In this document: positions 21,615 through 54,701 of the stretch, one piece after another
Position numbering within the stretch: the stretch's first letter is position 1
Layout of the letters: each line of letters starts with the position of its first letter
Assembly: GCA_001687465.1 (NCBI GenBank)
Contig: LVLI01000152.1
Span: 1 to 62,879, forward strand
Direction of reading: 5' to 3'
Source: Halocafeteria seosinensis
Lineage: Eukaryota > Sar > Bigyra > Bicosoecida
Length of the DNA stretch: 62,879 bases
Position numbers and translations under genes: made by a program
Notes under the pieces: model-generated
Seen by the model: only the letters and a program-made list of their open reading frames with translations
What the model was told of the DNA's origin: nothing
Database searches by the model: none

Positions 21615-23586
21615 ATGGCCACCCACGATCCCTCCCAGCAGGTGACATGGCTTCACGAGCGACCCCGATTTACGGTGTAAGTAACGCTTAAGTACCTTCG
21701 GCCTCGGATGTATACTGACCCGGTATCTCGGTATGCAGATCAGGAGGTGCTGCGACGTCCGAATTTCCAGACAAATTTGGCTCTGATGATTCCCGGCGGT
21801 GGCTCGAGGGATGCGCGGTGTGGGGCGGTGTCTTTGCCATTATCGGGTTTGTGGCCACGTAAGTGATGCTGTGATTGCGCCTGGAGACGATATCCCAATT
21901 TGATTTATATCAATTTATCATTGGTGTACAGCGTGTTTATAGTGCTTGGCTACCTGGCGGCTCTCTGTTGCCCTTGCAAACCCTGCTCAGCAAAACGAAA
22001 AGATAAGGAGAACCGGGACAAGTTGTCTACTTCGCTGAAGCATGGAGAGAAGAACCCGAGAGCGTGGGCGTACAATCGAAAGCTCTATATTGTCACTGTG
22101 GCCAGTGCGTTCATTTTTCTGATACTGGCTTTCACGAGTTTCTATCCGGTGACATCGTTTTTCGATGACGGCGTGAACCGGGGCTTGGACGGGATTGAGA
22201 GTGCCCAGAAGACGTTACAACAACTCATTAATGTGGCCGTGGACCTGAAAAAATATTTGGGCTCAATTCACAGCCAAACACTGGACGCTGCCGATGCTGC
22301 AGGGGACAGTGGGGTCCGTACATCGCTCGAAAATTTTGCCGGAAGAATTAACATAACCATAGACGCTGCCGAAACAGGAATTTCTGCAGCGCGGGACCTT
22401 CACGATTCTTTGGACGATGTAGTCAAGGACGGACGCGATGCCTCCGACGCATACGCTAAGAAGGTGGCCTTCGGTTATGTAGCGGTTCTATGTGCGAGTA
22501 CAGTTATCTTGCTCATCACACTGATTCCAAAGAAGTTTTGTTCTCTCCCCTACAAAATGGTTGGGGTTCCTCTAAATTCGGTATTCTTGTTTTTGCTATG
22601 TAAGTATAGCGCTGATAACAAAACGTCGGTAATGCACCTTCGTGATGAAATTGTACAGGGATCTTTACTGGGATATATCTCGTCATTGGGATGATGAGTG
22701 CGGATTTCTGCATCAGGCCAAATGGGAACACGATAGAACTGTTTGAAGCTTCCGTAGGCCCTCAAAGCAAAAGCACTCAATCAGTAAGGTATTACCTTAG
22801 TTGTGATCCGACTACTCCCGAAGGTAACATTACGCAAAGCGACGGTACGTACCATACACTGTAATTGCTGTGAAGCATGGTGCTAAATCGCTTGAAAAGA
22901 CATTCTTCAGGCCTACGTTACGATGTGCGGGATACCGTGATGCAAACTCGGGATCTCGAATCAAAATACGAAACTACGTTTGACGATATCGAAGGACAAA
23001 ATGCTAACAGTGATGTTCTCACGAAGTTCAGGGAAGTGAATACGACCCTTCACAACGCTTTGGGGACGGTTCAAAGACTGGACGATATCGCAAGCTGCAG
23101 CAGTATACGCAGAACATGGGATACATTTGTTGTAAGAATGCTGACTTTTACGTTCCTGTCCCAATACTGTACACCATATTTTGAATTTCCTCGCAGGACG
23201 CATTCTGTGAGCACTTCATTAGTGATGGAATAATTGTAAGAAAACTATTCACGGCTGGACTGATTCTGCATTCCTAACTATGTCAAGTGAAGCACAGACG
23301 CTGTTCGGGCTTCAAACCTTCATGGCAGTTATGCTGATCATCATTTTGCTTTTTGGGTGGAGCTTTTGCGTGCGTCACCCTTCGAGAACATTCGATAACG
23401 AAGACAAACAGTGCGTCACCCCTTCAGATGTGCAGGTATGTTATTTGGTAGATAGCTGGATGCTCAAGCGGATGGATACAAACGAGTGTTGTGCAATTTC
23501 AGGTCGGCGCCACCGAATGGACCTCGAACCCAGTGCCTGTTGGCACTGAAGCCCCAGAGCAACGGCAAAAGCAAGCCTCAGCATGA
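21615..23586 (+). CDS. Tweety-like membrane protein T1
   Basis: Eight exons: 21615-21676, 21739-21858, 21932-22599, 22659-22844, 22911-23131, 23197-23235, 23298-23435 and 23503-23586; 505 residues. Membrane spans at about 45-75, 112-135, 238-260, 272-296 and 434-458 give the 1-2/3-4/5 pattern of tweety homologues, with two large ectodomains (about 136-237 and 297-433). Family marks are WLHERPRF near the start, a Cys-rich first cytosolic loop (CCPCKPC), DDGVNRGLDGIESAQ after span 2, DGRDASDAYA before span 3, MMSADFC and YYLSCDP at the start of ectodomain 2, DDIASCSSIRRTW and AFCEHFISDGII at its end, then GWSFCVRHPS after span 5. ADFC, YYLxC and the late paired cysteines match the TTYH ectodomain pattern. 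Prominin is the alternative family. The role here is unknown; animal TTYHs are linked to volume-regulated anion currents. Confidence 0.82.
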
Positions 23587-24495
23587 TGTTAAGCGGATAT
23601 CCGTGCGTCGCCCTCCAGGTGCGGTAGACTTTCGTAGACTTTCCTGTATCCTGTATCACAAAACCTCAGTGTATCAATGTGAACATGCCATGTTTGTAAC
23701 CATACCGTAGTAGTTTCAAGTTTTCTCGAGAGAAGTAGCCGAGCGTTACTTATGACTCTGAGAGCTACGCTGTTCCAGCCTACCAGCAAGCAGTTACCGA
23801 CAGGTCGCGATACCTAGGATATCGCATTGAAAGAGTATTTTTTTTTTGGTTCCAGGAGAGCCAAGCATAGCTTGTGATGAGAACGCCTTGGTTGTACAAT
23901 CTTGCGGGTGCACTGTTGGGCCAATTCTTCATGGTCCTGCACTGCAAAATCGGCTCGCTTCAACTACGCGTAAAGAGTCCCCACGACATGGGGTAAAGAA
24001 ACCAGGGGGTAACGGACTGCTGCGAGGTGTGTATGTTTAGATTTGTCACTATCGTTAGCACATGACAGACCTATCATCTCCAGGCAAAGTAAGTAGTGTA
24101 CATGTACGTCGTAGCATTTGCTATGAATCTACGAGTATTCAGGAAGGCTACGTAAGAAGAATACCTAGCGTTGGTCGGGGAATATCCACTTCTTAGTCCG
24201 CCAATTATGAACCCATGACGGGAGTTAAACGTTGCTCACGAACGCGACTACTTAATTAGGTGGTGTTCCTCGTTGACATTGACCGTCGCATTGACCGTCG
24301 CTTCCTTATTCCTTGCCCATGTTCGATCTTCTGCGTTGGGGCTAGGTCGCATGCAAGTGTTGTTCGACGCACTGGAAGCGAGATTCAGATAAGGTGCTAG
24401 CAACCGCCCTTATCCATATGTTTTCCAATGTGGCTGTTTTGACCTTTTCATTTTTAAGCTGGAGTGCAGTCACTGCAGTGTATCCGGCAGCAACG
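23587..24495. other. Intergenic between T1 and T2
   Basis: About 900 nt. There is an oligo-T tract near 23838-23850. Near 24320-24350 a TTCGATCTTCTG...CTAGGTCGCA string resembles the one upstream of T1. In frame with T2 the sequence from 24421 could encode a hydrophobic leader (see T2). No other gene seen. Confidence 0.45.
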
Positions 24496-26480
24496 ATGGC
24501 TACGTACAATCCCTCGCGACAGGTGGAATGGCTGCATCAGAGATCACGATTCACAATGTATGCGCGAAACGTCATCGGGAAAATGTTGAAGTTAATACGG
24601 TTCCTCCTCTGATGGGCATGTGCGCAGATCCGGAGGTGGCGCTACCTCTGAATTTCCGAATAATATTGGTTCATCGGATTCCTTACGATGGGCAGAAGGT
24701 TGCATGGCATGGGGTGGTGTCTTCGCTTTGATAGGTTTGGTGACAAGGTTAGTGTGACTGTCTACAGTGGGCCTTATCCAGGAATCTTGATTTTCTTTCC
24801 TTTGCCTGATCCTCAAACAGTCTGTTTATCTTGCTTGGATATCTTTTTGCCCTTTGTTGCTCTTGCAAGCCATGCTCATCGAAAAAGAAAGATGAAACAA
24901 ACCGGAAAACGTTGTCAAACTCGATAAACCAGAAGAATTCGGAAGCATGGGCGTATAACCGGAAACTGTACCTGATCACCTTAGGAAGCGTTTTCATCTT
25001 CCTTGTACTGACATTCACGACGTTCTACCCCGTAACCTCATTCTTCGATGATGGGATAAACCGGGCATTAGATGGGATTGAGAGTGCCCAACGCACGCTG
25101 CAAAGATTGATCAATGTAGCTACAAGCTTAATTGGAACTTTGACTACCTTAGAGAAAACAACCAGAGATGCGGCTAATGTCGCTGAGAACGAAGATAGCG
25201 GCAATGCCGCGGGGCTGCTCATGCAATTCTCAGGAGACGTTAACGACACCAAGGACATTGCTCAGCAGGGAATATCTGCAGCCCGAGACCTATATGAATC
25301 GCTGGACGATGTCGTGAGCGATGGGCGGGATGCATCGGATGAGTACGCTAAGAAAATAGCTTTCAGCTACGTAGCTATACTATGTGTGAGTACAGTCATC
25401 TTTCTTATCACGCTGATTCCGAAGAAGCTATGCTCATTGCCCTACAAAGTCATCGGTGTCCCCCTAAACACAGTGTTTCTGCTCCTGTTGTGTAAGTTGG
25501 GTTGAGATTATCCTCGAAGTCGTAGGCATTGATTTAGGTCATCTGCAGGGACGTTCACTGGAGTATATCTTGTGGTTGGAATGATGAGTGCGGACTTCTG
25601 CATTAAACCTAATCAGAATACAATAGAGCTATTTGAAGCTTCGGTGGGACCAAACAGTGCGAGTACTCAATCTGTCAGGTATTATCTTAGTTGTGACCCG
25701 ACTTCTCCAGAAGGTAATATAACACAGAGTGATGGTAGGTGTGACGGACCTTGAAAACATGACTGTTCATGCTCACCGGAACACGAGGAATCTGTATCCA
25801 GGTGTACGCTACGATGTCCGGGAAACCGTTACGGAGACCCAGCGACTCGAAACAGCTTATGAGAAGACTATCGAAGACGTTAAGGACGAAATCGAGAATG
25901 ACAATGCACAGAGGGCTGTTCTGACCGTGTTCAGAGAGGTTAACAGCACCCTCCAAGGTGCATTAGACACTGTTCTGGAACTGGACGATATTGCAAGTTG
26001 CAGCAGTATTCGCAGGACATGGGATATTTTTATCGTAAGAGCTAAGGAGCTTCGTATTGTTGAGCACCCGAGCCACCTGATCTTTCCACTTTGCTCCCCT
26101 CGCAGGATGCGCTATGTGAACATTTCATTAGTGACGGTGTAATTGTAGGTTGCCTCCTCGATGTCTGTTCCTCTGTCAAACTGTCTCTTCAAATCCTCTA
26201 AAGTGCAGACGTTGTTCGGCCTTCAAACTTGTATGAGTGTTATGCTCATTTTCATCATGATATTTGGGTGGAGCTTTTGCATTCGCCATCCGTCGAGGAC
26301 CTTCCAGCCAGAAGAAAAACAGCGTCTCATACCTGAAGATGTCCAGGTAAGTGTCCCGAGTGTTAACCGTAGCCGGAAGGCTTTAGAGTGGCATACCGTG
26401 TTAATCTGCAGGAGGATTGGAACAATAACCCTATAAAAGGCCAGACACCACAATCACCAGAGAAGCCAGCAAACGAGTGA
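24496..26480 (+). CDS. Tweety-like membrane protein T2
   Basis: Eight exons: 24496-24557, 24628-24747, 24821-25491, 25549-25734, 25802-26034, 26106-26144, 26209-26346 and 26412-26480; 505 residues, the same length as T1 and with exon sizes matching almost one for one. It keeps every family motif, including MMSADFC, YYLSCDP, DDIASCSSIRRTW and GWSFCIRHPS. N-glycosylation sequons NIT and NST lie in ectodomain 2. The tail is short, acidic and Pro-rich. The frame stays open upstream to an ATG at 24421 that would add a 25-residue leader with a hydrophobic core and an AVTA cleavage-like end; I kept the ATG shared with the paralogues. T1 and T2 are clearly sister copies from a recent tandem duplication. 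Confidence 0.82.
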
Positions 26481-27058: not shown

Positions 27059-29343
27059 ATGGGTAGTGGGGAATCATATGAACCATCATGGAGGGTGAAA
27101 TGGCTTCATATGCGTCCAAGATTCACATTGTAAGTGGTCTCAAAAGATCAAGTCTGACTCACCCTCTGAGGATGACTTCGTTCAAGTTCAAAGTTCTTGC
27201 GGAAGTGTACCCCGGTTCACATACAGTACGTAATACCTGCCGCAGCTCGCTTGAAGCGGCATCTAATGAATTTCCTAACAGCTTCGAAAGCAAAGACGAA
27301 TATCATAATTGGTTCGAGGGTTGCCAAGCCTGGGCTGGAGTCCTTTCTATGGTCGGGCTCATTCTTGGGTATGTGTGCAACTGGATGTTCTCCACGATCA
27401 CTCAATGACTTCTACCAATGTTATGAACAGCGCCGTATTGACGGTGGGATACTTAGGAGCAGCGTTTGGTAGTCGTTCAATTTGCTCAGCAAAGTCGAAA
27501 GATCGGAAGAAACTGAACCAGCTGTATACGTCTCTGGAGCGGGAGGACTTCTCGGAAACGAGTTCGAGTTCTAGAGACCGCTCTTCAACTGTGTCTTCTT
27601 TACCAGGAGCGTCGAGTAGTAAACAACGAGAATGTGCCTATAATAGGCGACTTTATGCAGTTACTATGATACTCCTGTTCGCATTCTTAGTCCTGTCGAT
27701 ATCTACTTTTATCCCTGTTACGGCAGTTTTCGATGATGGGATAAATCGAGGATTGGACGGAATCGAAAGTGCGCAAGGAATTCTTCGACGCCTTGTCGAT
27801 ATTGCACAACAGGTTGTTGGACAGTTGGAGCAGATCGAAGAGCAGTCAAGGGAGTTGGCAGATGAAGCAGAAAGAGCGAGAGCAGATGATGCAGCGCAAA
27901 ATCTAAGAAACTTTGCGGATGCAACGGAGGATCCCCAAGCAAGTGCAAGTCAAGCAATCTCCTCCGCTAAAGATCTGGACCAAAGGTTAAACACAATCGT
28001 AGAAGGAGGGAGGTCTGCATCTGATAAATATGCTTTTAGGATCGCGTACTCCTACGTTGCAATTATGTGCACAACCAACTTAATATTCCTTGGCACATTG
28101 ACGCCCAGGAAAGGGTTCGCTCTACCGTACAAAGGTTTCGGAGTTCCATTGAATATTCTATTTTTTGTGTCGCTATGTACGTGGAGTAGGATGATACTTG
28201 TTCTCTGGTGCGGAATTTTATTTTCTTGACTACTTGTCTCCCAGGGGTTACCACTGGGTTATACCTGATGTTCGGATTAATGGCCGCTGACTACTGCATT
28301 GAGCCGAATCGCAACACAATTGAACTGTTTCAATCGCATGCTGGGCCGAAAAGCTCCAGCGCTCAGACAGTGACCTATTATCTTAGTTGCCAGCCTGGGA
28401 CCACTGAAGATATCTCGGATGACGATGGTACGTTCTTGAGATTCCACAAAAATTCCTTTCTGACAGTTCATTGCACACACTTACTGTTCGTTCGACAAGT
28501 TGCAGGCTTACGATATCAAGTTCGTGCCGCTGAGGAACGAACGGAATTTCTTGCTCGCCGTTTTCAGGAGACCTTCGAAGACCTGAAACAGAACACGGAG
28601 GGGCATGGACATGGGCAAAGAGTAGTCGAAGAGTTCAAGCAATTGAACAGTACCGTCCAAGATACCGTGCAGGCATCGCGAGAACTTGATAACCTTGCGA
28701 GCTGTCATAACATACGCACCACCTGGTATATACTCCTAGTAAGGCAAAATCCAACACCGCTCGATGGAACATGGATTCTATGATTTGTCGAATAATTGCA
28801 GGATGCGGTCTGTGGAAGTTTCATCAGCGACGGCATAATTGTGAGTTTGCTTAAACACCCGTTGCATTACTGCATCACCGTGAGTGATAACCAAATTTTG
28901 ACCTTTTTCAGACTCTATTTTGTATTCAAAATGTGATGCTAACTTTTCTAACATTCATTTTGCTCTTCGGGTGGAGCTTCTGTGTTCGGCACCCCTCTAG
29001 AAAGTTTGATATGGATGTCACTAGGGAATTCCATGCTGATGACAACCTCAAATGTATTACTTTGGAGAACATCCATGCGGTACATGAAGTAAGTGTGCTA
29101 CCACTAACACTCTCAATCGAGGAGTGCCACACAAAAAATGTCATCGCAGGATGAGCGTCAAGACCCGACGGTCGGACCAAAAGCAAGAGAAGCGTAAGTG
29201 CCACTCCTCTCGCTTCAACAACGTGCTTTACCACAAAAAATTTTCTGTTGCACAGCTCTGAAGACCTTCGCATTGTCGTGTCTTCAGACTTCCCTGGAGG
29301 CGAAAACAACCCTGACGAAAGTACCCCTCTCGGTGCTCAGTGA
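27059..29343 (+). CDS. Tweety-like membrane protein T3
   Basis: Nine exons: 27059-27129, 27246-27368, 27431-28176, 28245-28427, 28506-28738, 28802-28840, 28912-29088, 29150-29193 and 29256-29343; 567 residues. The start at 27059 gives MGSGESYEPS followed by KWLHMRPRFT, matching the N-terminus of T6/T7. An ATG at 27088 in another frame is a false lead. The first cytosolic loop is longer than in T1/T2 and holds a Ser-rich stretch before YNRRLY; the usual Cys cluster there is reduced. Ectodomain motifs MAADYC, YYLSC and NLASCHNIRTTW are kept, and the extended cytosolic tail needs an additional intron shared with T4. All five spans look intact. Confidence 0.8.
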
Positions 29344-31274: not shown

Positions 31275-33495
31275 ATGACGGTGACCGAAACATACAAGCC
31301 GTCTGACAAAGTCATATGGCTTCATGGAAGGACGCGTTTTACAGCGTACGGTAAAGACAAGTATAACTCGGGTTGTTCGAAACACTTGGAACTTGTTGCT
31401 TTTGACTGCGTGTGCAGATCATTCGAACCTGCAACCAATGAGTTTCCCAGTTCCTTGAAATGGGACGGTGAGTCTCGTGAGTGGATGGAAGGCTGCGTAA
31501 CATGGGGTGGAGCGTTTGCGCTTCTTGGCTTAGTATTATCGTAAGTTTTTACACGAACTGTAAGCAGCGGCAACTCAGGACGCATAACTCCCAACTCCGT
31601 ACTCATGCAGGGGATTGTTCCTGCTCGGTTACATAATCTCTCTGTGTTGCTGCTTTCGTTATTGCTCAGCGAAGAAGAAAGATGCTGCTAACATGGCGAA
31701 ACTCTCTTGCAAGGGCACTGCTAGCGATAGAGAAAATGCGTCTTTGGCAGGACCGCAACCTATTGCATGGGCGTACAATAGAAAACTTTACTTACTGACT
31801 TTAGGTAGCGGCGTGGTTTTTCTACTCCTCGCGTTAACAACGTTCTATCCAGTTACGGCATTTTTCGACGACGGAGTTAATCGATCTTTAGACGGGATCG
31901 ATAGCGCACGAGCTCTGCTGCAACGTCTGATCGATGTCGCGAACCAAGTAATTGACCTGTTGTCCGGGGTTGAACAGAAAACTAGGGACATTGCTGATGA
32001 CGTACCCCAAAGCAGTGACGTCCACGACTTTCTTATCGACTTTGCTAATGCGGCCGAAGCACCACAGCAGAGTGCTGAGGATGGGATTGTGGCAGCGGAG
32101 GGACTCGAGGACCGGCTAAGGAATGTAGTAAGCGACGGCCGTGATGCCTCGGACACCTACGCGACAAAGATTGCCTTCACTTACGTGGGAATTCTGTGTT
32201 TCTCTATGTTAATTTTTCTCGTGACGCTGATTCCTTGGAAGCTCTTTTCATGTCCTTACAAAGCTGTCGGAGTCCCCCTCAATTTGGTTTTTTTGTTCCT
32301 TCTATGTAAGTCCCAAGACAACCATACTGACATTTCGGCTATTAAATCTATATTCATTTGCTGGTTACAGGGACTTTTACTGGAATCTACCTCGTCATTG
32401 GTTTGATGAGTGCCGATTATTGCATGAGACCGAATGAGAATACTATTGAACTGTTTGAATCGTCCGCGGGACCCAACAGCAAAAGTACCCAATCGGTGAG
32501 ATACTACCTCAGCTGTGACCCGACTTCACCAGAGCGCAATATCACGAAGAATGATGGTATGTGCCATTATTCGGGAGTATAACCTACCCAATTGATTTAT
32601 TTTGCCTTTTACGATGTCTATGCAGGTGTACGCTACGACGTTCGTCAAACCGTAGTGGAAACAGAAAATTTCGCGGTAGACAAGTTCGAAGAAACAGTAC
32701 GAAAAATCGAGGATGAGGCGGACAGCAATGCTGAAGAGAACGCCGTCGAGAGATTTAAAAGGCTCAACAGCACCCTTCAGGATACATTAAATGTAGTTCG
32801 TGAGCTCGACGATATTGCTAGCTGCAGCAGTCTTCGTGCAACCTGGGACATCTTCGTCGTAAGTGCTTGCAGGACTAGCTGAGTAGATTCGCGAACCCTA
32901 TGGTTTCTTGTACTGGTATGAACATACAGGACGCTTTTTGTGACAAATTCATTAATGACGGAATCATCGTGAGTGTCGCCGGCCTGAGACTTATCACCGT
33001 TCTGGGTGCAGCTGTTACAAACCGGTTATCATGCAGACGTTATTCGGCATCCAAACATTTATGGCGGTGACGCTCACGGCTATTATGGGCTTCGGATGGA
33101 GCTTTTGCATCCGCCACCCATCCAGAACTTTTAAGAATCTCAGGAAACAATGGATTACTGCAGAGGAACTTCCCGCAGATCTACGAGTAGATGTGAGTAT
33201 AATGAGATTCGCCACACTATTTGCTGGGCAATTCATGCCCATATCAATATGTTTTAATGCCTGCAGAATCAAAGCGCCGGAGATAACTATTTGGGAGAGT
33301 AAGTGGAGTAAGCAGACAATCTACCATCTCATTTCAAGGTTTGGAGGATTTCTATAATCAACTTTCAGACACGAAGCACAAGGCGCTAGCGTTGTCCCTC
33401 CACGAGCGGACGACGGCTTTGCGTTGGCAGGAGCTGAATCATACACAGAACCCGCACTAGATAATAAAGAAAATAACCGCCATCATTATTGGTAG
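31275..33495 (+). CDS. Tweety-like membrane protein T4
   Basis: Nine exons: 31275-31345, 31418-31540, 31611-32305, 32371-32556, 32626-32858, 32930-32968, 33037-33192, 33267-33298 and 33369-33495; 553 residues. An in-frame TAG two codons before the ATG fixes the start. It has all family motifs: WLHGRTRF, a Cys-rich loop after span 1, DDGVNRSLDGIDSA, DGRDASDTYA, LMSADYC, YYLSCDP, DDIASCSSLRATW, FINDGII and GWSFCIRHPS. The 95-residue tail has an extra intron at the T3 position and is rich in Asn, Glu and His. Its closest relatives are T1 and T2. It converges with T5: the two stop codons are 133 nt apart. Confidence 0.82.
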
Positions 33496-33628: not shown

Positions 33629-35584
33629 TTACCCTGCGGCAGCGATGCGATTCTTGTCAGTTACCCTGTCCCTCGAGGGATGTCGGATACAGAAACTCCA
33701 CCCAAAAGCTAAGATGAAAAACAGCAAGGCACCCATTATGGTCTGCAACGCAAAAAGAACCTGTAGCCGAAGAGAACGATGTAATCAATGATATTTATTC
33801 AATCCAGAGGTTGGGAAAATAGCACTTACTACTACACCATCACTGATTACATCTTCGCACAAGGCTTCCTGCACAACACATACTCATGAAACATTAGGAA
33901 ACGTATCGAGCAGGATTACAATTCCAAATTGTACATACAACAAAAATGAAAAAGATAGGTTGCACATTCCCACAGCGGAAGTCGTCGTCCAACTGTTCCA
34001 GCTCGTCCAGAGCTGGGTTTAACGAGTCATTTCTCAAACCTGAAAAATCCTCGATCATTGCATCAGTACCATGTTCCTCTACTGTATCAAGGGCCTCTTC
34101 ATATCCATTGTTCAGTAAATCCCGCGTGCTGTTAAGAGTGTCAAAGATCTTGAATCGCAAGCCTGATGCATAGCACAATAGCCACACTACACGATGGACA
34201 CGGAAATCTGCTCATGGCTTTGTTAAGTACGACGTACCGTCGTCCGGTTGGGGCTCATAATCTTTGTCAGAAGGGTTGCAGGTTAGGTAAAAACGGATAG
34301 AATCCACTGCATCTCCCGATGATCCTGCAGCGGATTCGAATATGTTCAGCGAGTTCGAAACAGGTTCAACGCAGAAATCAGCAAACGCTATTCCAGTGGA
34401 CAATATCACGCCCGTGAAAATCCCTGCGATCGCACCCCATTAATGAAGTTCCTATAAAACTAGGGGCTCCCGCAGAAATTCCAGTTAAATACTTACAGAG
34501 TATCAAAAAAAAGAGCATGTTGATAGGCACACCAATCCCCTTATATGTGCACGAACATATCCTCATCGGAACCAGCGTCACCACGAATATAACCATAGTA
34601 GCGCACATCGCCCCCGCGTAAGCAAATGATACAGTTCTCGCATACGTATCTGATACATCTCGTCCGTCGCTCACAAGGGTATCAAGGTCTTTTGCAACAG
34701 ATGCGGCAAGATCGTCACTATTCTTAGCAATCTTTATGGTGGCGTTGACGCTGTTTCCAAACTTTTCCATTGCAGTCTCTACTTCATCGTTATTGTTTTG
34801 TCCAGCTTCGATATCTATTTCTGCGCTAACACTCGCAGAGATCGCTAATTTGTCCGAAATCTCTGTCATTGCAGAAGTAACGTCCTTGAATTTGCCTTGT
34901 GCCTGCTCTACACCATCCAAACCCCGGTTGTAGCCATCATCGAAGGATGTGATCGGAGCGAAAGTAGATGCCGCGAAGACAAGAAACACGAGTGAAAGAA
35001 GGAGTGTTATCACATAGTAGCGCTTATTGTAACCTTTAGGGTTTTGAGTGTTCTCGTCAAACTCCTGTCGATCGCGTTTTTCCCGGGAAAGACAGCAACA
35101 AGAAGCGAAGTACCTGGTCCGCAAGTGCAGTCGAGCCACTTCCATACGATGAAGGAAACGAGCTCGTTGCATAAATTCATGTACTTACCCAACCAATATA
35201 ACCACTAAGAGAACCACTCCTATCACCGCAAAAATAAGCGTCCACATCCCTACCCCTTCACCTGCAAGAAAACTACCCAACAAGTCTGTTCGCTAACGCG
35301 CGAGATGACAATCAAGATCAGTTAACTTACCCCATTCTTGTAAGGCCGTCTGGTCGGTCACTGAGGAGGGAAATTCGCTCGGAGCGGATCCAAATGAGCT
35401 GCAAGTGAACACACACTCACAAGGAAGTGAACGTGGCGGTTTTGCTGGCAGCGACCAAACGCTCAGGTCGCAGCAGGGCGAATACGGTGTGACGCAATGC
35501 GCACGGATGACTATAAGCCATGAACACATACAAGCTGTAGCGCGGCCTCTCGTGGAGCCATTCCACTCGCGAAGAAGGTTCCAT
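33629..35584 (-). CDS. Tweety-like membrane protein T5 (inverted copy)
   Basis: Eight exons, right to left: 35532-35584, 35331-35398, 35189-35261, 34497-35113, 34238-34423, 34162-33939, 33868-33830 and 33760-33629; 463 residues, the shortest member. It is the only copy on the minus strand. Motifs: WLHERPRY, a Cys cluster ASCCC after span 1, FDDGYNRGLDGVEQAQ, SDGRDVSDTYA, FADFC, FYLTCNP, FRCGNV, LCEDVISDGVV and GWSFCIRHPS. The cysteines and spans are intact, so it is not a pseudogene. The added intron inside the span-1 region (after EW-G) is shared with T6 and T7 and absent from T1-T4, so it belongs with T6/T7 despite lying next to T4. Its N-terminus is 6 residues shorter than that of T6. Confidence 0.8.
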
Positions 35585-36730: not shown

Positions 36731-37114
36731 TTAACCCCATGCTTTGGTAATTGCGTAGTTGATCACCAGTTCATCTCTCATTTGGAAGTTCTGCAAATTT
36801 CACAATTAAACCCCACAGGGAAAATCCTTCCAGGATAGTGAGTGATGTAAACTCATTGGGCCTTGGTTACACTGTATACGGCATACCTGGTACAAATCTC
36901 CCAAAAGTTGATCGGGGGCGGGGCTGAAATTCGACTGGCAAAACAAGTACAGGGCGTCATCTTCCGCCAGCTCGTCCTTGAGGGATTTTCGCACGAATTT
37001 GATCACTTGGGCAAAGGGTTCTTGACCACTTATCTTGAATTTATCCTTACGTAAGATAGGAGCTCCTCCCACGGGCCGTAGATGGAGCTTCACGGACGCG
37101 TCGGAAGCCGCCAT
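36731..37114 (-). CDS. ATG12: Autophagy-related ubiquitin-like protein ATG12
   Basis: Two exons, 36887-37114 and 36731-36790, with a 96-nt GT-AG intron; 95 residues. The beta-grasp fold is recognisable by KLHLRPVGGAPIL near the start, the FVRKSL segment, and the signature LFCQSNFSPAPDQLLGDLYQ (about 57-76). The last residues, NYAITKAWG, give the C-terminal glycine that ATG7/ATG10 would activate for conjugation to ATG5. The ATG12-ATG5 conjugate drives lipidation of ATG8 at the phagophore. Unlike the yeast and human proteins there is no long N-terminal extension: it is essentially the bare ubiquitin fold. The ATG at 37114 is the first in frame. Confidence 0.92.
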
Positions 37115-40728: not shown

Positions 40729-42660
40729 ATGGCGGCGACAGAAAGCTATGAACCTTCAACTCAGGTGCAGTGGCTCCATGAACGAACCCGCTATACGACG
40801 TAAGCCCCTCTTAATAGCCCCCATAGTGCAGTGTCTCCCTTTAACTGTGCATGTATAGCTTGCAGGAGTTTCGGAGCGGCTCCCCAGGAATTTCCTGATT
40901 CATTTGGAGGCAGCGATTCGAATGACTGGGGTAAGTTGAAGCTGATCCGGGCACACACTCGTTGGTTTCTCTAACTTTCGGTGCTTTTGTCCGCGTTTCC
41001 TGCGGTGCAGTTATAGGATGTGTGATGTGGACGGGGATATTTGCATTCATTGGTTTGCTCTTCACGTACGTCTCGCTCATGGTGTACACATGACAAACAC
41101 TGTCTTCCATGGGGTTTCACCAAATCTAGCCTTTTTTTATTCACTCTATGCAGCCTTATTTTGATGATTGGATATTGCCTCACTCCGTGCTGCTGTTCCT
41201 CCAAAAAGCGAGACATGACAGAGCTGAAAAATAATCCTTCGAACCCCAAACCGTACAACAAGAGGTTTTTCATTATAACCCTCGGGTTATCAGCACTTTT
41301 CTTCATTTTCGCTTTGGCCACATTTGCTCCCATCTCCTCTTTTGACGATGGATTTAATCGGGCCCTTGATGGAATAGAAAGTGCACAAACAACCCTGCAA
41401 GAAATAACCGACGTGGGTGGTAAACTGGTGGACCTTCTCGGTGGGGCGGCCGATACTACGGACGAACTTGCTGACGATGTCAATAGCAACGGTCCCATGG
41501 AAGACGCATTAAGAGACTTTGCCAGCGCAGTAAGGGATACGCAATCTACTGCTAGTAGTGCCATTGGTACTGCCCAGGATCTTGTTGACAGCATTGGTGA
41601 TGTTGTCCAAGATGGGAGAGACTCTTCAGATAAGTACGGGGAAACAATAGCATTCGCGTATGCCGGCCTGATGTGTTCGAGCGCAATCATTCTGATGATA
41701 ACTCTTATTCCTAAATCTATTTGCACATGCCCTCACAAGTTCATTGGAGTCCCTGTCAATCTCATGTTCTTGCTTCTCCTCTGTAAGTGAAAAGAAAAGC
41801 ATCCCCAGTGGGAGCAATTTGTTCCATTTTGTATTGCATACGCAGGGATGTTCACGGGAATTTGGCTCACGCTGGGCATGATGTCGGCGGATTTCTGCGT
41901 TGCACCGAATCAAAACACGATCGACCTCTTTGGTTCGGGATCCAGTGGGAATAGCGTTCGCTATTACTTAAGTTGTGATCCCGACAAGAAGGAAGTAGTT
42001 ACACCTGATGATGGTAGGTTCGCTGTATCAGCTTTCACATGTTTGAGAAGATGGCAGTGTATTGATGGACTCGATCGTGCAGGATTGAGATACGAAATTC
42101 AGCAAACATTGGAGAAGACTGAAACGTTGATCATAGACACGTACGGGGAGGCAGTACGGGAGGTAGAGGGTCACAACAACGGAAACAATAATCAGGTAGT
42201 TGAAGATTTCAAAAAACTAAATGAGACCTTTTTCCAACCTGCGTTGGTTCAAGTAAGAAAGCTGGATGAAATCGCAAGTTGCAAGAGTATACGTCGGACC
42301 TGGGATATCTTCATCGTAAGTAACAACAGCTTGCCCCTAGCTGTTCCTTCCGATACTAATCTTCTATGTATTTGCAAATGCAGCAAGCCTTCTGTCGGGA
42401 CTTCATCAGCGATGGAATAATCGTGAGTGCTGCTGGCAATGGATATGACATCGTCCAACAAATATATACTCTTTTGCTTGCGCTTCCAGGTTCTTTTTGG
42501 ATTGCAAACCTTCATGGCAGTACTCCTCTTCCTGATAATGTTGTTCAACTGGAGCTTTTGTTTGAGGCACCCAGGAAGGTCTCCAAAACATTTGCAAGAC
42601 ACCAATGATTGGGGCGCAGACAAGATGGCCACTGTGGTGAACCCAACTAGGACAGCGTAA
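40729..42660 (+). CDS. Tweety-like membrane protein T6
   Basis: Eight exons: 40729-40799, 40866-40930, 41011-41065, 41154-41782, 41846-42013, 42083-42315, 42384-42422 and 42490-42660; 476 residues. The N-terminus MAATESYEPSTQVQWLHERTRY is clean. Span 1 is split over two introns, as in T5 and T7. The first cytosolic loop has a CCCSSKKRD cluster and a YNKRFF membrane entry; FDDGFNRALDGIESAQ follows span 2. Ectodomain 1 is Asp/Ser/Thr-rich. Ectodomain 2 has MMSADFC, YYLSCDP, the NET sequon, DEIASCKSIRRTW and AFCRDFISDGII. Span 5 runs into NWSFCLRHPG. T7 is a near-copy: exons 1-5 and 7 have identical lengths in both genes. Confidence 0.84.
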
Positions 42661-43305: not shown

Positions 43306-45260
43306 ATGTCCGCGACAGAGAGCTATGAGCCTTCCACGCAGGTGGAGTGGCTCCACGGACGCTCCCGCTATACGTTGTAAGCTGCACTTCCAGAGCCCGA
43401 TAGGTCCATATTCCCACGGTACTTTAAACGCATACATTGCAGGAGTTTTGGACCGGCCCCGCAGGAATTCCCCGATTCATTCGGAGGAAGTGAATCCACT
43501 GATTGGGGTAAGTTTGGCGCGGTTGTTGAACTTACTCGTGTTGGTTACTGCCATTTCCCACTTTCGGCTTTTCTCGCCTGTGTCTCTTCTGCAATACAGT
43601 GATAGGATGTGTTATGTGGACGGGAATATTCGCAGTCATCGGGATCGTATTCACGTAAGTCTAGAGGGGGTTGAAGTTCATTCTCCACGCCGTCCCGGTG
43701 AGGGAACCTTCCAAACGCTCACTACCGATTGCGCGTCATTCTATTTGGCTCAACAGTGTCATATTAATACTGGGGTATTGTTTCACATGGTGCTGCTGCT
43801 CTTCCAAAAAACGAGACGGGGCAGAGCAGAAGAGGAATCCTTCCAACCCAAAGCCGTACAACAAACGATTCTTCATCATCACTCTTCTCCTCTCAGGGGT
43901 CTTCTTCGTCTTCGCTTTGGCTACGTTTGCCCCAATCTCCTCGTTCGACGATGGGTTTAATCGGGCTCTGGATGGAATAGAGAGTGCACAGTCAACTCTT
44001 CAAGACATAACCGAAGTTGGTGGAAAACTCGCCGATCTCCTAGGTGGAGCTGCTAATGCAACGGACGCGCTAGCTGACGACGTCGACGGCAGCCAAGATT
44101 TGGAAGACGAATTGAGGAACTTTGCCGACTCAGTTCGGGATACGCAATCTACTGCTGAGAATGCTGTTAGTACTGCCCGTGACATTGTTGACAGTATTGA
44201 CGGTGTGGTCCAAGATGGAAGGGACTATTCAGATCAGTACGGGCAAACAATAGCTTTCGCATATGCTGGCCTCATGTGTTCGAGTGCAATCATTTTGATG
44301 ATAACGTTAATTCCGAAAGCGATTTGCACTTGTCCTCACAAAGCAATTGGAGTCCCGGTCAACCTCATGTTCTTACTTCTCCTCTGTAAGTCGAGCGGAG
44401 TCTTGCACGGTAGAACATGGATTCCAGGATCAGCTTGTTAGTGCTGTATTGCATGTACAGGGATTTTCACGGGAATTTGGCTCACATTGGGCATGATGTC
44501 GGCTGATTTCTGTGTTGCCCCGAATCAAAACACCATCGACCTCTTCGGTTCCGGCTCAAGTGGGAATAGCGTTCGCTATTACTTAAGCTGCGATCCCAAC
44601 AAAGAGGAAGAAGTCACTCCTGGCGATGGTAGGTTCCCTATTTGCTTGCACATACATGAAGAGGGGACAGTAACCGTGACGGGCTCGCACTTGCAGGCTT
44701 AAGATACGAAATTCAGCAAACAGTGAAGAAGACTGAAACGCTAATCATAGACACGTATGGACAGGCCGTTGAAAAAGTAGAACAGGCCAATGAAGACTCA
44801 GGTGGAAACAACGACGATGTTGTTAACGGTTTTAGGAAACTGAATGAGACCTTTTTTGAACCTGCATTGGTTCAAGTGCGAAGGCTGGATGAAATCGCAA
44901 GTTGCAAGAGTATCCGTCGAACCTGGGATATTTTCGTGGTAAGTCTCAGTAGTCTCGGTCTCTGAGGTCTGAAAGAGCATTTACGGTCTTCTTGCCTCCT
45001 CTACAATGACAGCAAGCATTCTGCCGCGACTTCATCAGCAACGGAATCATTGTAAGTACCGTATCTGCGTGACGTGAGTGTCCAGTGTTGTCAGACGTGC
45101 ATCGGTGCCATTCTTTCAGGTTCTGTTTGGGTTGCAAACATTCATGGGAGTGATGCTCTTTCTCATTATGCTGTTCAACTGGAGCTTTTGTTTGCGACAC
45201 CCTGGAAGGTCACGAAAGCGTGTTCAAGACTTTGAGGGAGCGCAACCGACTGGCTCTTGA
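43306..45260 (+). CDS. Tweety-like membrane protein T7
   Basis: Eight exons: 43306-43376, 43443-43507, 43600-43654, 43757-44385, 44461-44628, 44697-44938, 45013-45051 and 45120-45260; 469 residues. It is a close duplicate of T6 and keeps all its motifs: WLHGRSRY, CCCSSKKRD, FDDGFNRALDGIESAQ, MMSADFC, YYLSCDP, DEIASCKSIRRTW, FCRDFISNGII and NWSFCLRHPG. It differs mainly in ectodomain 1 (NATDALADDVDG, carrying a sequon), a 9-nt longer exon 6, and a shorter basic tail (RSRKRVQDFEG). Intron sequences differ much more than exons, so the pair is recent but not identical. Confidence 0.84.
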
Positions 45261-45840: not shown

Positions 45841-48119
45841 ATGAGCAAATTTTCTGTCTCGTCCTCCAGGTCGCCTTTGGTGAGCTTGATGGGGATCCTG
45901 TATATTATAGGACTGCTCCATACAGGGGTTTTAGCAACCCATAACCACACTTCACACAGTGTGCGCGTGCATGCACAGCACAAGGATACGATTACGGAGG
46001 AGTACAGCCCATCACGGGGCGTCAGATGGCTCCATGAACGGGATCGCTGGAGTTTCTGGGGACTGAAACCACGTCCAGATGCTGCGCATTTCCCAACGGA
46101 CCTTAAAGGCAACGAAGAGCAGCGCGATAGATGGCGTACGTTTCTCAGATATTACTCACTTGTGTCCCCTCATGTATGATCTGGATGGTTGTTCCTGCAG
46201 TAATCGGATGCGGTAATTGGGGACTGATCTTCGTAGGTATGTCGCAATCACGATAGTACTTTCGGCACACTCAAGTCAATTGATACTTTAGGGTGTGGAT
46301 GCATCAAGCAGGAATTGGAAGCGTGCTCACAGCTTTCGTTAGTGGCGTGTAAGTAAACTTTATAGAATGCAGCCCCGGCAATTAACCTTAGGAATCTGTT
46401 TTGTGGTTCTTACCCCGTTTTGTCCAGATATATATGCTATCTGATATGTTCGACAAGACCGACACCACAGAAGCGAGCCTGTGTCGATAGTTCGGATTTC
46501 GAGAACAGGTTTTATCCCCCGAAAATCCCTAATCGGAGTAGGAGGAGGTCAGTTTCAACAGACGATGAAGTGGAGGATACTTATCTCGCGTCTCCCGTTC
46601 ATAGCTGTGAGGACGCATTGCATAAAGCGGCTGGTTTCTTTGCATTCTTTTTTTTGGTCTGCATTTTGCTCACTACTGTTCCGATTCACTTTTTTGACAC
46701 TGGGTTCCACGGGGGACTTGATGCCTTGAGAGATGGACGAGACTCCCTCCAAGAGAGCACAAAGCTCGATAACGAGAGCCACGCCCATGTTTCCAACATT
46801 GGCGGAATATCTGCGGTATTGGCAAATCGAATCGCAAACCAAAATCAAACCATTGCAGAGGCGCTGACTAATTTATCCGAGCTGGCTAATTTTACAGCAA
46901 TTGGAGTGGCAGATACGGTTAACTCCTCAGCGGACATCTCTGACCGAGTCAACACTGTGATAATCAATGGGCAAGGCGTGCTAGATCACTACTCCCATAC
47001 TATTACAGGAACATACTGGGCGTTTCTAGGATTAACAATGCTATTTTTCCTTGCTTCTCTTTGCCCAAAACCGTTATGCTCGTGCTGTTTCAAGTTTGTA
47101 TCAGTGCCACTTAACATCTGTCACGGACTGTGCCTATGGTCGCTGACAGGCGCGGTTTTGTTCATCGGAATAATGGCCTCTGACTTTTGTATGAAACCGG
47201 ATCACCACACCCTTGAAGTTTTCCAATCCTTTGCGGGGCAGGGAAAGAACACAACCAATTCGGTGCAGTTTTATTTGTCCTGCAAGAATAACTCGCAAAG
47301 GATATATCCGGATGATGGTAAGTATGATTGGAAACCACATCCTGTATTCCCTTTGAGTTAGCCCGTGTCGCTGCGCAGGTATACTTTACCAGCTGTCACT
47401 GGTAGGAGATCACCTAGGCAGCATTTCCCAAAGGCTTGGACACGTACATGACATGCTTGAGAACTCTACAATAAAAGAGGAAGACTGGAAAGATGAGTTT
47501 AAGAACATGAAGTCCAACGTAACGTCATCACAAAACAATACAGAAAAGGCTGCGAAGCTTCTTAGTTGCGAAAGTATCAACACGCACTGGGGCAAATTTT
47601 CGGTAAGCAGGCTACGTCAGAGCAAATACGAGGTTTTTTTTTTCTTTCTTTTTTTCTTTATTTAGTCCTATGTCGTGTACCTACTGCAGCGCAACGTGTG
47701 CAAGAACTTAATTTCTGATGGCGTAATTCCCGTTTTCGGTTTACAAACCATAATGGGAGTGCTGTGGGTAGGTTGATAGCTTGAAGCAAAATGGTTTGGT
47801 TGGAAGAACCCCCACAATCCTTGATCATACTTCTCAGGTATTTGTTCTGGTGTTAAGTGCCCGCTTTTGTCGACGACATCCGGGCGGAGTAGATCCATGG
47901 AAATCGTTTGAGGACTTCCTGGAAGACTCGTATCATAAGGCCAAGATATGGAGAGACTGGCTAAAAGACAAATACAGGAGCTATGTCAAAAGCGATCAAG
48001 GTTGCTGTGCCTGCTTTAAGGCATCCAGGCGAAAGAGAAACGGGACGATGGAGTGTACCCAAATTTCGTCACAAACACCGCAGAGGGAACCCCTCCTCCC
48101 GGAAGCTGCTCATGATTAA
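45841..48119 (+). CDS. Tweety-like membrane protein T8 (divergent, long)
   Basis: Seven exons: 45841-46135, 46201-46236, 46312-46348, 46428-47317, 47379-47602, 47690-47767 and 47838-48119; 613 residues, the longest member. It begins with a hydrophobic leader (MGILYIIGLLHTGVLA, inner ATG at 45889) that may be a signal peptide, followed by VRWLHERDRW. The introns at the RFT and LLC-W sites of other members are missing; new introns sit within span 1 (36- and 37-nt micro-exons) and within span 5. Ectodomain marks are FFDTGFHGGLDAL, MASDFC, FYLSC, LLSCESINTHW and CKNLISDGVI. After RFCRRHPG comes an 80-residue basic tail with a CCACF cysteine cluster, a possible palmitoylation region. Sequons are numerous (NQT, NLS, NFT, NSS). 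Confidence 0.78.
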
Positions 48120-48491: not shown

Positions 48492-50233
48492 ATGAGGAAG
48501 ATTACGGAGGACTATACGCCTTCCGGCAAAGTCAATTGGCTGCACAACCGCCACCGGTGGGATTTTCATTTCGATTCTGCGCCGAATTCATTCCCGGCTT
48601 TGTCTGGAGACGATGAAAACAGGAATAAATGGAGTACGTCGAAGTTGTCTCGCTTCCATTTCACCTTGGGATGTCGCTAACACCATATCGTCATTCCTCT
48701 GTGTTACGCAGTCGAAGGATGTATCATGAATGGGCTCATCTACGTCTTCATCGGAGCCGGAATCGTCGCTCTCTTGATGGTTGGATACTGTGCAGCGTGC
48801 TGCTGTTGCAAACCCCGGCGAGCGTCAGGCAGCCCGGAAGACATGGACTGGTTGCTGGTGGGGGAACGCCGTAAAGTGTACAACAAGACAAGGATAATTA
48901 TTCTGGTCTTGCTCTCATTTGGATTCTTTGTGGTTGCGGCATCCACATTTGCGCCTGTTCGAAGCTTTGATACGGCGTTTAACCATGGCCTAGATGCCAT
49001 AGAAACAACCCAAGATCTCTTCAAAAGGGTGGATACTTTACTAGGTAGAACAGCGAATCTCTTAGATGGTCCTATTCAAACCACCGCAAAGGTGAACAAG
49101 GAGATGGATGAAAAACATGGCGCTGTAAAGGATTTGTTAGGGGCACTCAAGACGGCGCAACAAGGAACCAGGAATTCTCAGGATTCAGTCCAAGACCTCG
49201 TTGAGAATACTGGGAATGTCGTCGATGATGGAAGGCATGCCTCAGATACGTATGGAAAGCCTATTGCGTATACCTATGCGACGCTTATGTGTCTGAGTGT
49301 CATAGTCCTCCTCTCGACCATGATTCCGTGGAGGATCTGCTCATGCGCCTACAAATCTATCGGGGTACCCAGTAATCTCCTGTTTCTGCTCGTCCTGTGG
49401 ATTGGAACGGGGCTCATTCTAATAATCGGTTTGATATTCGCCGACTACTGTACAGCACCTAATGGTAACATTTGGAAGAGCGTCGAGGCATCTTCGTTGA
49501 AATCGGAGTCCTCCAATTCGATTTACTACTACCTCAGTTGCAACCCCGATAATCCCAACCAGAATCTAACTGAGAAAGATGGAGTAGTTTACACACTGAA
49601 TCAAACAAAGCAAACTTTGAAAACGAACGTCATAGATAAGTTCAACAACGTCAACCAAGACGTCCAGGATTCAAGTATAAATAAAGAGACCAAGGAAAAT
49701 TTCAATAACAGCAAGAGAGAAATCGATAAGTCGTTCAGCATCCTTAGTGAGGCGTTTTCGCTCGTGAACTGCACAAATGTTCGCAAGCCATGGGGACAAG
49801 TCATAGTAAGTCCAAATCGCCTTGTCGTTTACAGGATGTGTCCACAGCGATTATGCTCCACGGTGAACTTGCACGTGTCGTGTTTGAACAGAATGCAGTA
49901 TGTGGAGATTTCATCAGTAGCGGTGTCATTGTGTAAGTATACACTGTATCTCGGGACTGTTCCATGAATCAGGATCCATACAGTATGTACTTCCGTTCAT
50001 GCAGTTTACTCGGAATTCAGTCAACTATGGGCTTGTGGCTTGCCGTCATTTTGGTGTTTGGCTGGACTGTCTGCGTTCAACACCCAGGGCAAGCAACCTC
50101 GCATTCTTCTGCAACTGAGAAGCCCTTATATTTTGAAGGCGATCATCATCCTGCTCAAGTTGGGGATTATTCTTACCCGCCTAGTAACACACATCCCCAA
50201 TGGAAGGCCATAGAGTTACCCAGTAGTGGTTAA
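48492..50233 (+). CDS. Tweety-like membrane protein T9 (intron-poor)
   Basis: Four exons only: 48492-48633, 48712-49805, 49892-49932 and 50005-50233; 501 residues. The large second exon fuses four exons of the T5-T7 layout, so the introns in span 1, before span 4 and in ectodomain 2 are gone. Sequence marks: VNWLHNRHRW, CCCCKPRR after span 1, FDTAFNHGLDAIE, DDGRHASDTYG, FADYC, YYLSCNP, NCTNVRKPW, VCGDFISSGVI and GWTVCVQHPG. The tail is His/Pro/Tyr-rich and lacks the RHPS ending of T1-T5. Coding potential is intact throughout. It pairs with T10 by the CVQHPG ending and by the CCCCKP loop. Confidence 0.82.
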
Positions 50234-50296: not shown

Positions 50297-50306
50297 GTAT
50301 GTAAGA

Positions 50307-50353
50307 GATAGCCCACCGGCCGGGGATCCTCTTAACGAGGAGCGGTATGCACC
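50307..50353. repeat. Dispersed repeat R2, copy 1
   Basis: The core GATAGCCCACCGGCCGGG followed by ATCCTCTTAACGAGGAGCGG is shared with 62754-62805. On the minus strand both encode the string GAYRSSLRG, and both adjoin a short CA-rich tract. CCTCTTAACGAGG is itself a perfect inverted repeat around a central base. Confidence 0.75.
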
Positions 50354-50853: not shown

Positions 50854-52603
50854 ATGGCCCACCTGGCCGCTTCTAACTCGGCTTTCGAGCCATCCAATGC
50901 TGTTAAATGGTTCCACGACAACAGTCGATGGAACAAGCACTTTCATAGCATCTCCAATGATTTCCCCGACATTTCCAACCATGATGAAACAGAAACTTGG
51001 TGTAAGTACGCTCCCTGCAATGGTCCATGGCCCGGAAAAAAGTACGGCGACGTGTACGTTACATGCAGTTAAGGGCATTGTGTGGCATGCCGCTGCCATT
51101 ATTGGAGTAGGGGCTGGGCTAACGCTCGTGATCTTCATTGGCTACATGGCAGCGTGCTGCTGCTGTAAGCCGGAACCGTCCAGACAGCCGGAATCCGTGG
51201 AGCAATTGCTGGACAATCGACAAAACCAGGTGTCCCACAAGCAACCCCCACCGTACAATCGCAAGCGTCTTATCACTATAGTTGTCCTCAGCTTAGTGTA
51301 CTTGGCCATTGGCTTTAGTGTGTTCAAACCTGTGCGAGTTCTCAGTGTCAAGTATCACGACGGCCTCAAAGCCATTACCTCCACCAAGGACACCCTATCG
51401 GAAGCGAAGACTGATGCTAGCAAAGCAGAAGATCCATTGGAGGAAGCAGTGGATGCCACGGAGAAAATAGTGGATTGCGCCGATGCGGAAGATTTTTACA
51501 ACAATGTGACCTCTGCGTGGGATCATACACAAGGGGCACTGACAGGACTTAAGCAGCTTGTTCACCATCTGGACCCAGTGGTTGATCATGGAGAGGATTC
51601 GAGACATACTGGCAAGGAATTTTCCTACAATGTGGCGGGACTCTTGTGCTTTACTGTTATCGTATTGTTGTTTACCATGATTCCTTGTCGTCCGTGCTCA
51701 ATCGGGTACAAGGGGTGCAGTGTCCCACTGAACCTTCTTTTACTTCTTTTACTATGGGTACGTCTTTCTACTTCCACCGGTTGTGGTTCTGTGTCTATGC
51801 GCAACTGTTTGTGCCATATCGTACAGGTGACAACGGCAATGGTGTTTACTGTGGGGACGATGTTCTCGGACTTTTGTTACAATCCTGATGGGAATGCCAT
51901 CAAATCAATCAAAGGGGCTACTAGTAATTCCTCGTTGTCAGCAAGATCTGTCGAGTTTTATGTTCACTGTAATCCAAGTATGCATTCTGAAGATCGCTAC
52001 GGTGGTAAGTAACACTTGTACGTGCTCCAGTTTACCATCTCACGCTTAACGAACGGCATCACGTTGGGTCTTGGCAGGCATCATCTTTTTCCTCTCGGAG
52101 GCCAGCGACAGAACCTCTGATGCCCTTAACGAATTTGAGCGTGTTAACGAGACTGTTCATGAGCAATGTTCTGGAAATATAACGAATAATTTTGAAAGAG
52201 TCTATGCAGTCCTAAACGAAGCTTCAAGCCATTTGAGAACCACTGAAGACAAGCTAAGTTGTCGTGCAATCCAGGGAAATTGGCACGATTTTAGAGTAGG
52301 TCTACGTAAACACATTGTACAACTTGCACTGTAAACATTTGCACCTGGTATTGTTTGATGCAGGGAACGTTTTGCAACGATGTAATTACTAAGGGAATTG
52401 TGCCTCTGTTAGGTGTACTCACGGCTCTTTCAGTACTTCTGAGTATTATTCTCATGTTTGGCTGGACTGTCTGTGTCCAGCACCCTGGTAAACGCCGTGA
52501 ACACCAATACAACGCAGAAGTCAACGGGACTCAGATCGAAGGCACCGGTTTTTATGATAGAGGGGGCTTCAACGTTCAAGAGTCTTACCCATATCGAGGA
52601 TGA
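50854..52603 (+). CDS. Tweety-like membrane protein T10
   Basis: Five exons: 50854-51001, 51069-51757, 51827-52004, 52078-52295 and 52364-52603; 490 residues. The N-terminus has VKWFHDNSRW, a divergent form of the WLHxRxRF mark. CCCCKPEP follows span 1. Ectodomain 1 is shorter and lacks the DGGxNRxLDG string (LSVKYHDGLKAI instead) but gains a cysteine (KIVDCADAED). Ectodomain 2 starts FSDFC and has FYVHCNP, LSCRAIQGNW and FCNDVITKGIV. The last exon merges the 13-codon micro-exon with span 5, which ends GWTVCVQHPG. The tail contains many Gly/Tyr/Asn residues. All five spans are evident. Confidence 0.8.
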
Positions 52604-52872
52604 ATGATTTCATAGCGACCGACTCACGTGAGTGAAATCTGCCCGGTAAAAGCGCTAAAAATCAGAATACACACATTCATTCTTACTCCATCCGTGTACC
52701 TTTAGTTAACAGATTGCTTTGCCTTGAAGTCCGGAGTCTAGGAGTCAAGCGTGTATTATACACGGTGTATACCCTTCCCGGCGAGGGTAGACACGTCAGT
52801 CGCCACGGTATTGTTGTTGGTTGCACCTAGAATTCCTTTTCCCCGTTTTGATACCAATCGTGGGGTGACGAC

Positions 52873-54701
52873 ATGGGAATGAACATGGGGCAGGAGGATG
52901 CGGTGACGATAGAGAACTACCGTCCATCCAAGGCAGTGGAGTGGTTCAACTCCCGCTCCCGGTGGACTTTTCGATTGGGCAAGGCCCCTTCTGAATTCCC
53001 CGGGCACGATTCCCACAAGCAGGAACAATGGGGTATGTGTGCCGTTCGTCACTCTTCCTCCCACAACGACGAACATGGAGGTTATGGCTGGTCTCTGTCG
53101 TTTGAACTTGCAGTGGAAGGAGGGATTTCGTGGACTTTGGCGTTTGGGGCCCTAGGAGTTTGTCTTATGTTTTTGCTGACTGTAAGTTATTCGATGACTT
53201 TATACGCTCGGAAGTACGCGGATTTTCGAGCCGAGGAACGCGAAGGACTCGTGGGTGAGAAAGTACGCTCCTATAACAGGAGAGCCTTGATAGCCACCCT
53301 GACCTCAGGATCGATCGGGCTGATTCTCATGGGAGGTAGCATGATTTCAGTCAGGTATGTGTACGCGTTGATTCCGACCTAATTTTCAAGTCGGTGACTT
53401 AGGATGTGTGTGCTTGGCAGATTATTGAGCGTCCATTTCGTCGATGCCTTGGATGCAATGAAGAAGACAACAGATGCGTTTCACAGCGGAAGCCAGTTCT
53501 TGAACCAATCGAATGCAATTCTATGCAACGTCACAGGAATAGTAGAGGACATCCAGGCAGGTGGTAATATCAGTGAACAGTTAAATGGTCAGCTCGACGT
53601 ATTTCATTCGTTGCTCCGGAATAGTATTGACCATTCGTACAACGCCAGCGTCGGAGCAACGTTCCTCAGTGGCCGATTGAATGGAATAGTGGGTACGGCG
53701 GACGCGGCAAAGAACACATACGGAGTGAAGATGGCGTACATGTATGCCTCATTTGCCGGTGCCTTTCTGTTTGGGTATCTCCTGAGTTTGATCCCGTCGA
53801 CGGTGGCGGCCTGCTCCTTCAAAGTGCTTGTCCCTTTTAACATAGTAGGGGTAGTTGTTCGTTCGACGGCGACGGGGGCGATTTTTATGATTGCAATACT
53901 TATGGCCGATTACTGCGATAAGCCAAACACCAATGCGCTCAAGATGATCGAACGAACAACGCTAGGGGGACAAGTTGCGTACGACTCTTTCGGGTATTAT
54001 CTGCATTCTCTGTCATCATTGACAGGCCATGATGGTAAGAGTGATATAGGGTCGAGTTTACTGCTTCACCCGTGTTCTTATTGTTGTTGAAGAGAGATGC
54101 ATCATGCAGGTATCCCGTTCTATACCCAGACGGCACAGAGCGAGCTGGGCGATGCAATTGAGATGTTTCCTGAAACTGCAAAACTTGTCCGCAATAGCTC
54201 GATCCCAGCATACCTCCAACATGAGTTTCAAGGGGCTGGCAAAAAGATGAACAAGTCCTGCAAGTCTATAAAGCAGGCACGATCCGACACTACGTGGCAA
54301 GTCTTTCATGGTTCATGGGACCCGTTCGTGGTACGTCACTAGAGTTTCATTTTGGGGCCAAACAATTCCGTGCTATATCGTATTAGGACGGAATGCAGAA
54401 CAACTTGTGTGGCCCCGTGTTTTCCGAGGCGTTGTCCCCATTATTTGCATTGGAACTATGCATGGCAGTACTTGCCGTAAGTTAGATGAAGATATCTGTG
54501 GTCGAGGGGGATACTTGTAGTGGTAGACAATCGGAACTGCAGGTCTTTACATTGTCATTTGGGAGAAGTTTTTGTACGCGGCACCCGGGGACGTGCATTA
54601 ATGATATACCCTTATATCCTGGAGAGGGAGACAATGAAACAACTCACATGTGCAGGCATGCGACATCTTTAAAGAGTTTGAATTACGCTCCTGTGTATTG
54701 A
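52873..54701 (+). CDS. Tweety-like membrane protein T11 (most divergent)
   Basis: Six exons: 52873-53032, 53114-53354, 53421-54034, 54110-54330, 54387-54476 and 54543-54701; 494 residues. Conserved: VEWFNSRSRW, MADYC, YYL at the start of ectodomain 2, the NLC near its end, and SFCTRHPG after span 5. The usual cysteine after YYL is replaced (YYLHSL), and the Cys cluster after span 1 is absent. The intron within span 5 falls at the same place as in T8, so those two share ancestry at that site. An intron at the end of span 2 is unique to T11. The stop lies 43 nt from the stop of the convergent TAF6 gene. Confidence 0.75.

Follow-up and report, generated by a model that had tools for sequence, protein, structure and literature searches.

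Vertebrate TTYH1–3 are described as dimers with an extracellular hydrophobic cavity opening to the outer leaflet, and for TTYH2 it is reported that APOE particles bind the tip of the extracellular domain and that lipid transfer is accelerated (PMC8361169, PMC12328215). The function of these proteins is contested, with channel, lipid transfer and vesicle shedding roles all under discussion. Here we describe eleven TTYH-family genes, T1 to T11, at positions 21,615–54,701 of a 62,879-nucleotide stretch of the Halocafeteria seosinensis genome (the window), ten on the plus strand and one, T5, on the minus strand, as defined by spliced alignment and hand curation. The window begins at base 1 of contig C105 within a genome of 30.6 Mb and 605 contigs. 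On balance, we favour a model where these genes arose by old tandem duplication and encode lipid-handling dimers with a shared core and variable docking tips.

T6 was spliced manually, guided by its splice signals, and then provided the template for a purpose-written spliced aligner. This recovered ten more genes without frameshifts, scoring 283–1940 compared with 33–48 in four control stretches. Some gene ends and the middles of T3 and T8 were adjusted by hand after spliced alignment; two stops in the first T8 model were absent once it had been corrected. The printed introns of the models are 57–133 bases long and GT-AG. All eleven reading frames are open, which bears out an earlier note on this DNA that had described eleven intact paralogues, ten forward and one inverted. 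Searching the genome with T6 yielded at least 50 matches covering exons of all eleven copies, at least 49 of them on the array contig, and the single match elsewhere (C288:38955-39161, E 0.015) is weak. With the T11 transcript as query, all 22 of the matches listed were on the array contig, and among the matches listed for these two queries there was no convincing extra copy elsewhere in the genome. A six-frame scan of the window, using a profile of 12 or 13 rows (one name occurs twice in the alignment file), gave no match at E<0.1 beyond the eleven genes. A Pfam family search of the genome found T9 alone and matched the E. coli control as well, and for these reasons was not used for the copy count. 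With eleven copies in one array, the own-genome searches also uphold the claim of an unusually large family, most genomes having few members.

Six EukProt proteins match array copies (T2, T3, T6, T7, T9 and T11). Their transcripts all carry the prefix GECG01, which very probably denotes the H. seosinensis transcriptome; literature searches for the prefix gave no paper. The protein-database searches, two of which scored the best 7,996 candidates by shared words, returned GECG01 transcripts only and no relatives in other species. The models of T6, T7 and T2 are identical to transcripts P0001 (476/476 residues), P0002 (469/469) and P0003 (512/512), respectively. T3 is identical to P0004 at 523 of 524 aligned residues ahead of its re-spliced tail, and T11 to P0005 at 486 of 490. 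The 3' end of T3 was re-spliced and one residue differs at a junction. The few residue differences between models and transcripts point to a different allele or strain. A spliced protein is encoded by five of the six transcripts, which, with every frame open, speaks against most copies being unspliced or disabled.

Membership of the tweety family, proposed in the earlier note, is supported by the Pfam profile, the predicted fold and the own-genome searches. Ten of the eleven copies score above the curated cut-off of Pfam Tweety (PF04906). These are T1 (21615–23549, seven exons, E 3.1e-14), T2 (24418–26436, seven exons, start set by transcript, E 3.6e-16), T3 (27059–29343, extra 3' introns at 29089–29149 and 29194–29255, E 7.6e-12), T4 (31275–33357, seven exons, E 3.8e-15), the inverted T5 (33629–35584, eight exons, E 6.6e-15), T6 (40729–42660, eight exons, E 3.7e-18), T7 (43306–45260, eight exons, E 5.1e-17), the divergent T8 (45841–48119, E 3.3e-8, 33.1 bits against a cut-off of 31.8), T9 (48492–50233, four exons, E 2.8e-15) and the divergent T10 (50854–52603, five exons, E 1.7e-17). 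The most divergent copy, T11 (52873–54701, six exons), gave no Pfam match at E≤0.01 when searched as P0005. The T8 model begins at the first ATG of its open frame, and the exons between transmembrane spans (TM) 1 and 2 are less sure. An additional N-terminal hydrophobic, signal-like stretch is present in T2 (24418–24495, by transcript) and T8 (45841–45990, by open frame) and absent from the other models.

The five hydrophobic regions follow the 2-2-1 order in ten copies; in T3 the third span is sub-threshold, though aligned. Several of the motifs that the earlier note attributed to every copy hold for part of the array. Its WLHxRxRF-type start is exact as WLHxRxR in nine copies and is replaced by WFHDNSR in T10 and WFNSRSR in T11. 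T3 and T8 have a weak Cys-rich first loop and T11 lacks it, and SCxSIRRTW is exact only in T1, T2, T6 and T7. Two of the four ectodomain cysteines occur in all eleven copies and two in ten, T11 carrying S and W instead. The cysteines of both TTYH2-type pairs (C274–C382 and C300–C367), predicted to form disulfides, are found in ten copies and those of one pair in T11. The Asp of [S/A]D[F/Y]C is retained throughout. The candidate positions of the dimer-interface Ca2+ site, in a TTYH2 register set by eye (T6 residues 136, 413 and 417), are acidic in 10, 5 and 8 of the eleven copies, respectively. Structure prediction for two of the eleven copies gave models with the overall fold of the TTYH cryo-EM structures, that of T6 containing the helices of all five spans and that of T11 having lower confidence. 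Both models are monomers, and the fold of the other nine copies rests on alignment. Prominin membership was rejected: PF05478 gave at best 22.0 bits (T5) against a cut-off of 34.3, the own-genome search yielded no Prominin match above cut-off, and weak similarity below it was seen at E≤0.1 in four of the 13 rows searched.

Pairwise identities range from 20% (T8/T10) to 81% (T6/T7), and neighbouring copies are more alike than distant ones. In the tree T1–T4 cluster together, as do T6 and T7, and the placement of T8, T10 and T11, all on long branches, is unsure. The identity range, the similarity of neighbours and these two groups therefore indicate that the array expanded in tandem long ago and grew somewhat further later on. 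The copies share intron positions and phases (T6 numbering; counted without the two 3' introns of T3, and with the 5' exons of T8 uncertain): 408.0 occurs in all eleven copies, 330.1 in ten, and 46.1 and 274.1 in seven each, while 434.0 is common to T8 and T11. The T6/T7 pair is under strong purifying selection, and synonymous change is saturated in six other pairs tried. Where measurable, in T6/T7, the array is under purifying selection.

Conservation is unevenly distributed along the protein. The distal helices are least conserved, with a mean pairwise identity of 22–23% across the eleven copies, followed by the N terminus, cytoplasmic loop and TM1–TM3 at 32–42%. The flap, TM4, the membrane-proximal stretches and TM5 are most conserved at 43–52%. 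Restricting the comparison to T1–T7 leaves the distal helices at the bottom and puts TM5 at the top. In the model we favour, the proteins would act as dimers at the cell surface or in endosomes. Each would have a hydrophobic pocket, lying above the outer leaflet, that receives lipids either from the membrane or from a carrier in the lumen or outside the cell. The more constant membrane-proximal part (flap, TM4 and TM5) would provide a common lipid-handling action, and the varying distal helices would let copies dock different partners or pair selectively. A common lipid-handling core combined with different docking tips is expected to give the conservation pattern observed. The lipid-handling idea, already raised in the earlier note, agrees by analogy with what is reported for the vertebrate proteins (PMC8361169, PMC12328215).

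Several observations weigh against this model. The conservation pattern is only suggestive, as helices on the surface of a bundle diverge rapidly even when the partner stays the same. The lipid-transfer action may not be family-wide given that, in the assay with APOE, TTYH3 is reported not to speed up the transfer of lipid (PMC12328215). The TM4 Glu of TTYH1 and TTYH3 is absent from all eleven copies, with a hydrophobic or aromatic residue in its place, so the membrane core differs from that of TTYH1/3. A profile search of the genome found no APOE-like protein above cut-off, and the four matches below it, the best scoring 25.3 bits where 90 is required, count for little because six of 14 prokaryote controls matched as well. 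Vitellogenin_N had no match in the genome, the controls being equally silent. The T9 transcript, P0006, is collinear with the model and retains an 86-base intron (49806–49891) that shifts the frame through TM5, its last residues returning to the model frame via a further difference; at least one T9 isoform is non-productive. The retention may be regulated, or the transcript may be an unspliced precursor. Lastly, the protein-database searches left T1, T4, T5, T8 and T10 with no transcript in hand. This does not equate to silence, since the alignment search also missed the T9 transcript that was later found.

Candidate partners for such lipid handling do occur in the genome. Two ML-domain (PF02221) lipid-transfer genes lie in tandem at G000:C91:59610-61174 and for this reason could encode TTYH partners; of the candidates considered this pair is the strongest, though the partnership is conjectural. 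Two closely related ML-domain genes with opposite salt responses are reported for Halocafeteria (PMC5447177). A bolder extension, which we regard as doubtful, is that in this extreme halophile the array is a tool-kit of lipid exchangers with one conserved pocket and eleven docking tips, each for its own secreted lipid carrier or salinity, that would swap outer-leaflet lipids as brine strength changes. If true, TTYH lipid exchange would be an ancient eukaryotic trade, older than APOE and nervous systems.

Alternatively, the copies may shape membranes, bending them to shed extracellular vesicles or to build protrusions, with different copies serving different surfaces or stages of a phagotrophic flagellate. 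Human TTYH1 is reported to induce extracellular vesicles (PMC11405016), and actions of this kind have been described for TTYH1 and Prominin 1. The weak Prominin similarity noted above is in keeping with such a role, but neither a copy nor any genome match exceeds the Prominin cut-off, and we consider this alternative possible though rather improbable. That dosage or drift accounts for the array, as a side effect of duplication in tandem with little specialisation and several redundant copies, seems unlikely in its turn. Such an origin would be consistent with the tandem arrangement, with five of the eleven copies having no transcript in hand, with the intron kept in the T9 transcript and with the loss from T11 of the cysteines of one disulfide pair. 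However, all eleven frames are open, intron positions are kept despite identities down to 20%, the T6/T7 pair is strongly constrained, and the divergence is probably too deep for unconstrained copies to have remained intact. Least convincing, and very improbable, is a role as anion channels for volume regulation, a function raised in the earlier note, with copies multiplied for life in changing brine, for while older physiology gave TTYHs Ca2+- and swelling-activated chloride currents (PMC8361169, PMC8273234) and Halocafeteria lives in hypersaline water (PMC5447177), two structural studies of TTYHs, with cryo-EM and electrophysiology, report neither a pore nor supporting currents (PMC8361169, PMC8617170), and in the salinity paper on Halocafeteria the duplicated genes include other chloride channels (CD03685), with 'tweety' absent from the main text (PMC5447177).

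Intergenic gaps within the array are approximately 270–870 bases, with the exception of T3/T4 (about 1.9 kb) and T5/T6 (5,145 bases). The latter gap holds two minus-strand genes from outside the family, an ATG12-like gene (36806–37240, APG12 E 1.2e-16) and an SNF-type sodium symporter frame (37406–39265, SNF E 8.9e-139). A 178-residue frame without a Pfam match adjoins the symporter and may be its N-terminal part (36806–39802, minus strand, for the whole group). No shared promoter word was found in the 200-base stretches that precede the eleven starts, the best 8-mer occurring in three of the eleven and being equalled in more than a quarter of shuffles. A TAF6-like gene lies downstream of the array and a piece of a 2-oxoglutarate dehydrogenase gene approximately 5 kb upstream, and given these flanks the window appears to hold the whole array. 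At 56449–58002 an open frame carries an Abhydrolase_2 (phospholipase/carboxylesterase) domain behind a long N-terminal part, for which no Pfam family matched at E≤1e-4. Elsewhere in the genome, triose-phosphate isomerase (TIM) is a stand-alone frame, with TIM and GAPDH on different contigs (C93:195416-196150; C478:8979-9452; C139:5918-6196). A TIM–GAPDH fusion is usual in stramenopiles, and the unfused TIM is unexpected for a member of this group. Ectoine synthase is matched at two loci, each time in three pieces as though introns interrupted the gene (G000:C33:55312-55779 and G000:C93:18298-18788); intron-bearing ectoine genes are reported for Halocafeteria, and ectC-like sequences for other protists too (PMC5796728). 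Six P2X-receptor matches were also seen, four at G000:C103:92719-97645, suggesting another local gene cluster, and the others at C183:12940-13098 and C264:8972-9157. Thirteen P2X genes are reported for Halocafeteria (PMC5447177).

The array shares with vertebrate TTYH1–3 a whole-length fold, as predicted for T6 and T11, the 2-2-1 topology, four ectodomain cysteines and an N-terminal PSxxVxxLH stretch. The copies are of comparable size, with approximately 460–610 residues against 450–534 in human TTYH. The array differs in comprising eleven copies at one locus rather than three genes and, relative to TTYH1/3, in the replaced TM4 Glu, and its genome has no APOE-like partner above cut-off. Prominin (CD133) likewise has five spans in a 2-2-1 arrangement, and a distant homology to TTYH has been proposed, but its extracellular loops exceed 300 residues by the criterion of that study (PMC11405016), whereas here, counted between hydrophobic segments, they measure 89–105 and 112–135 in ten copies, T3 not being measurable. 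Halocafeteria is a free-living protist in which all eleven copies are open and six or more are transcribed. With neurons and APOE both lacking, it would allow a shared TTYH function to be tested and the copies to be compared with one another, and it has been cultured at 15% and 30% salt (PMC5447177). Among the titles and abstract openings listed for tweety together with stramenopile, tandem, expansion or gene family, no such array is described. According to a review, TTYH genes occur widely across eukaryotes and other expansions exist, with three genes in Dictyostelium, one in Entamoeba, three to four in Arabidopsis, one in each of two Thalassiosira species and eight in Sphaerobolus (PMC8273234). 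The proteins belong to a known family and the novelty is accordingly modest; what is new is the copy number and the setting, with eleven genes here against the largest of these counts, eight in Sphaerobolus (PMC8273234).

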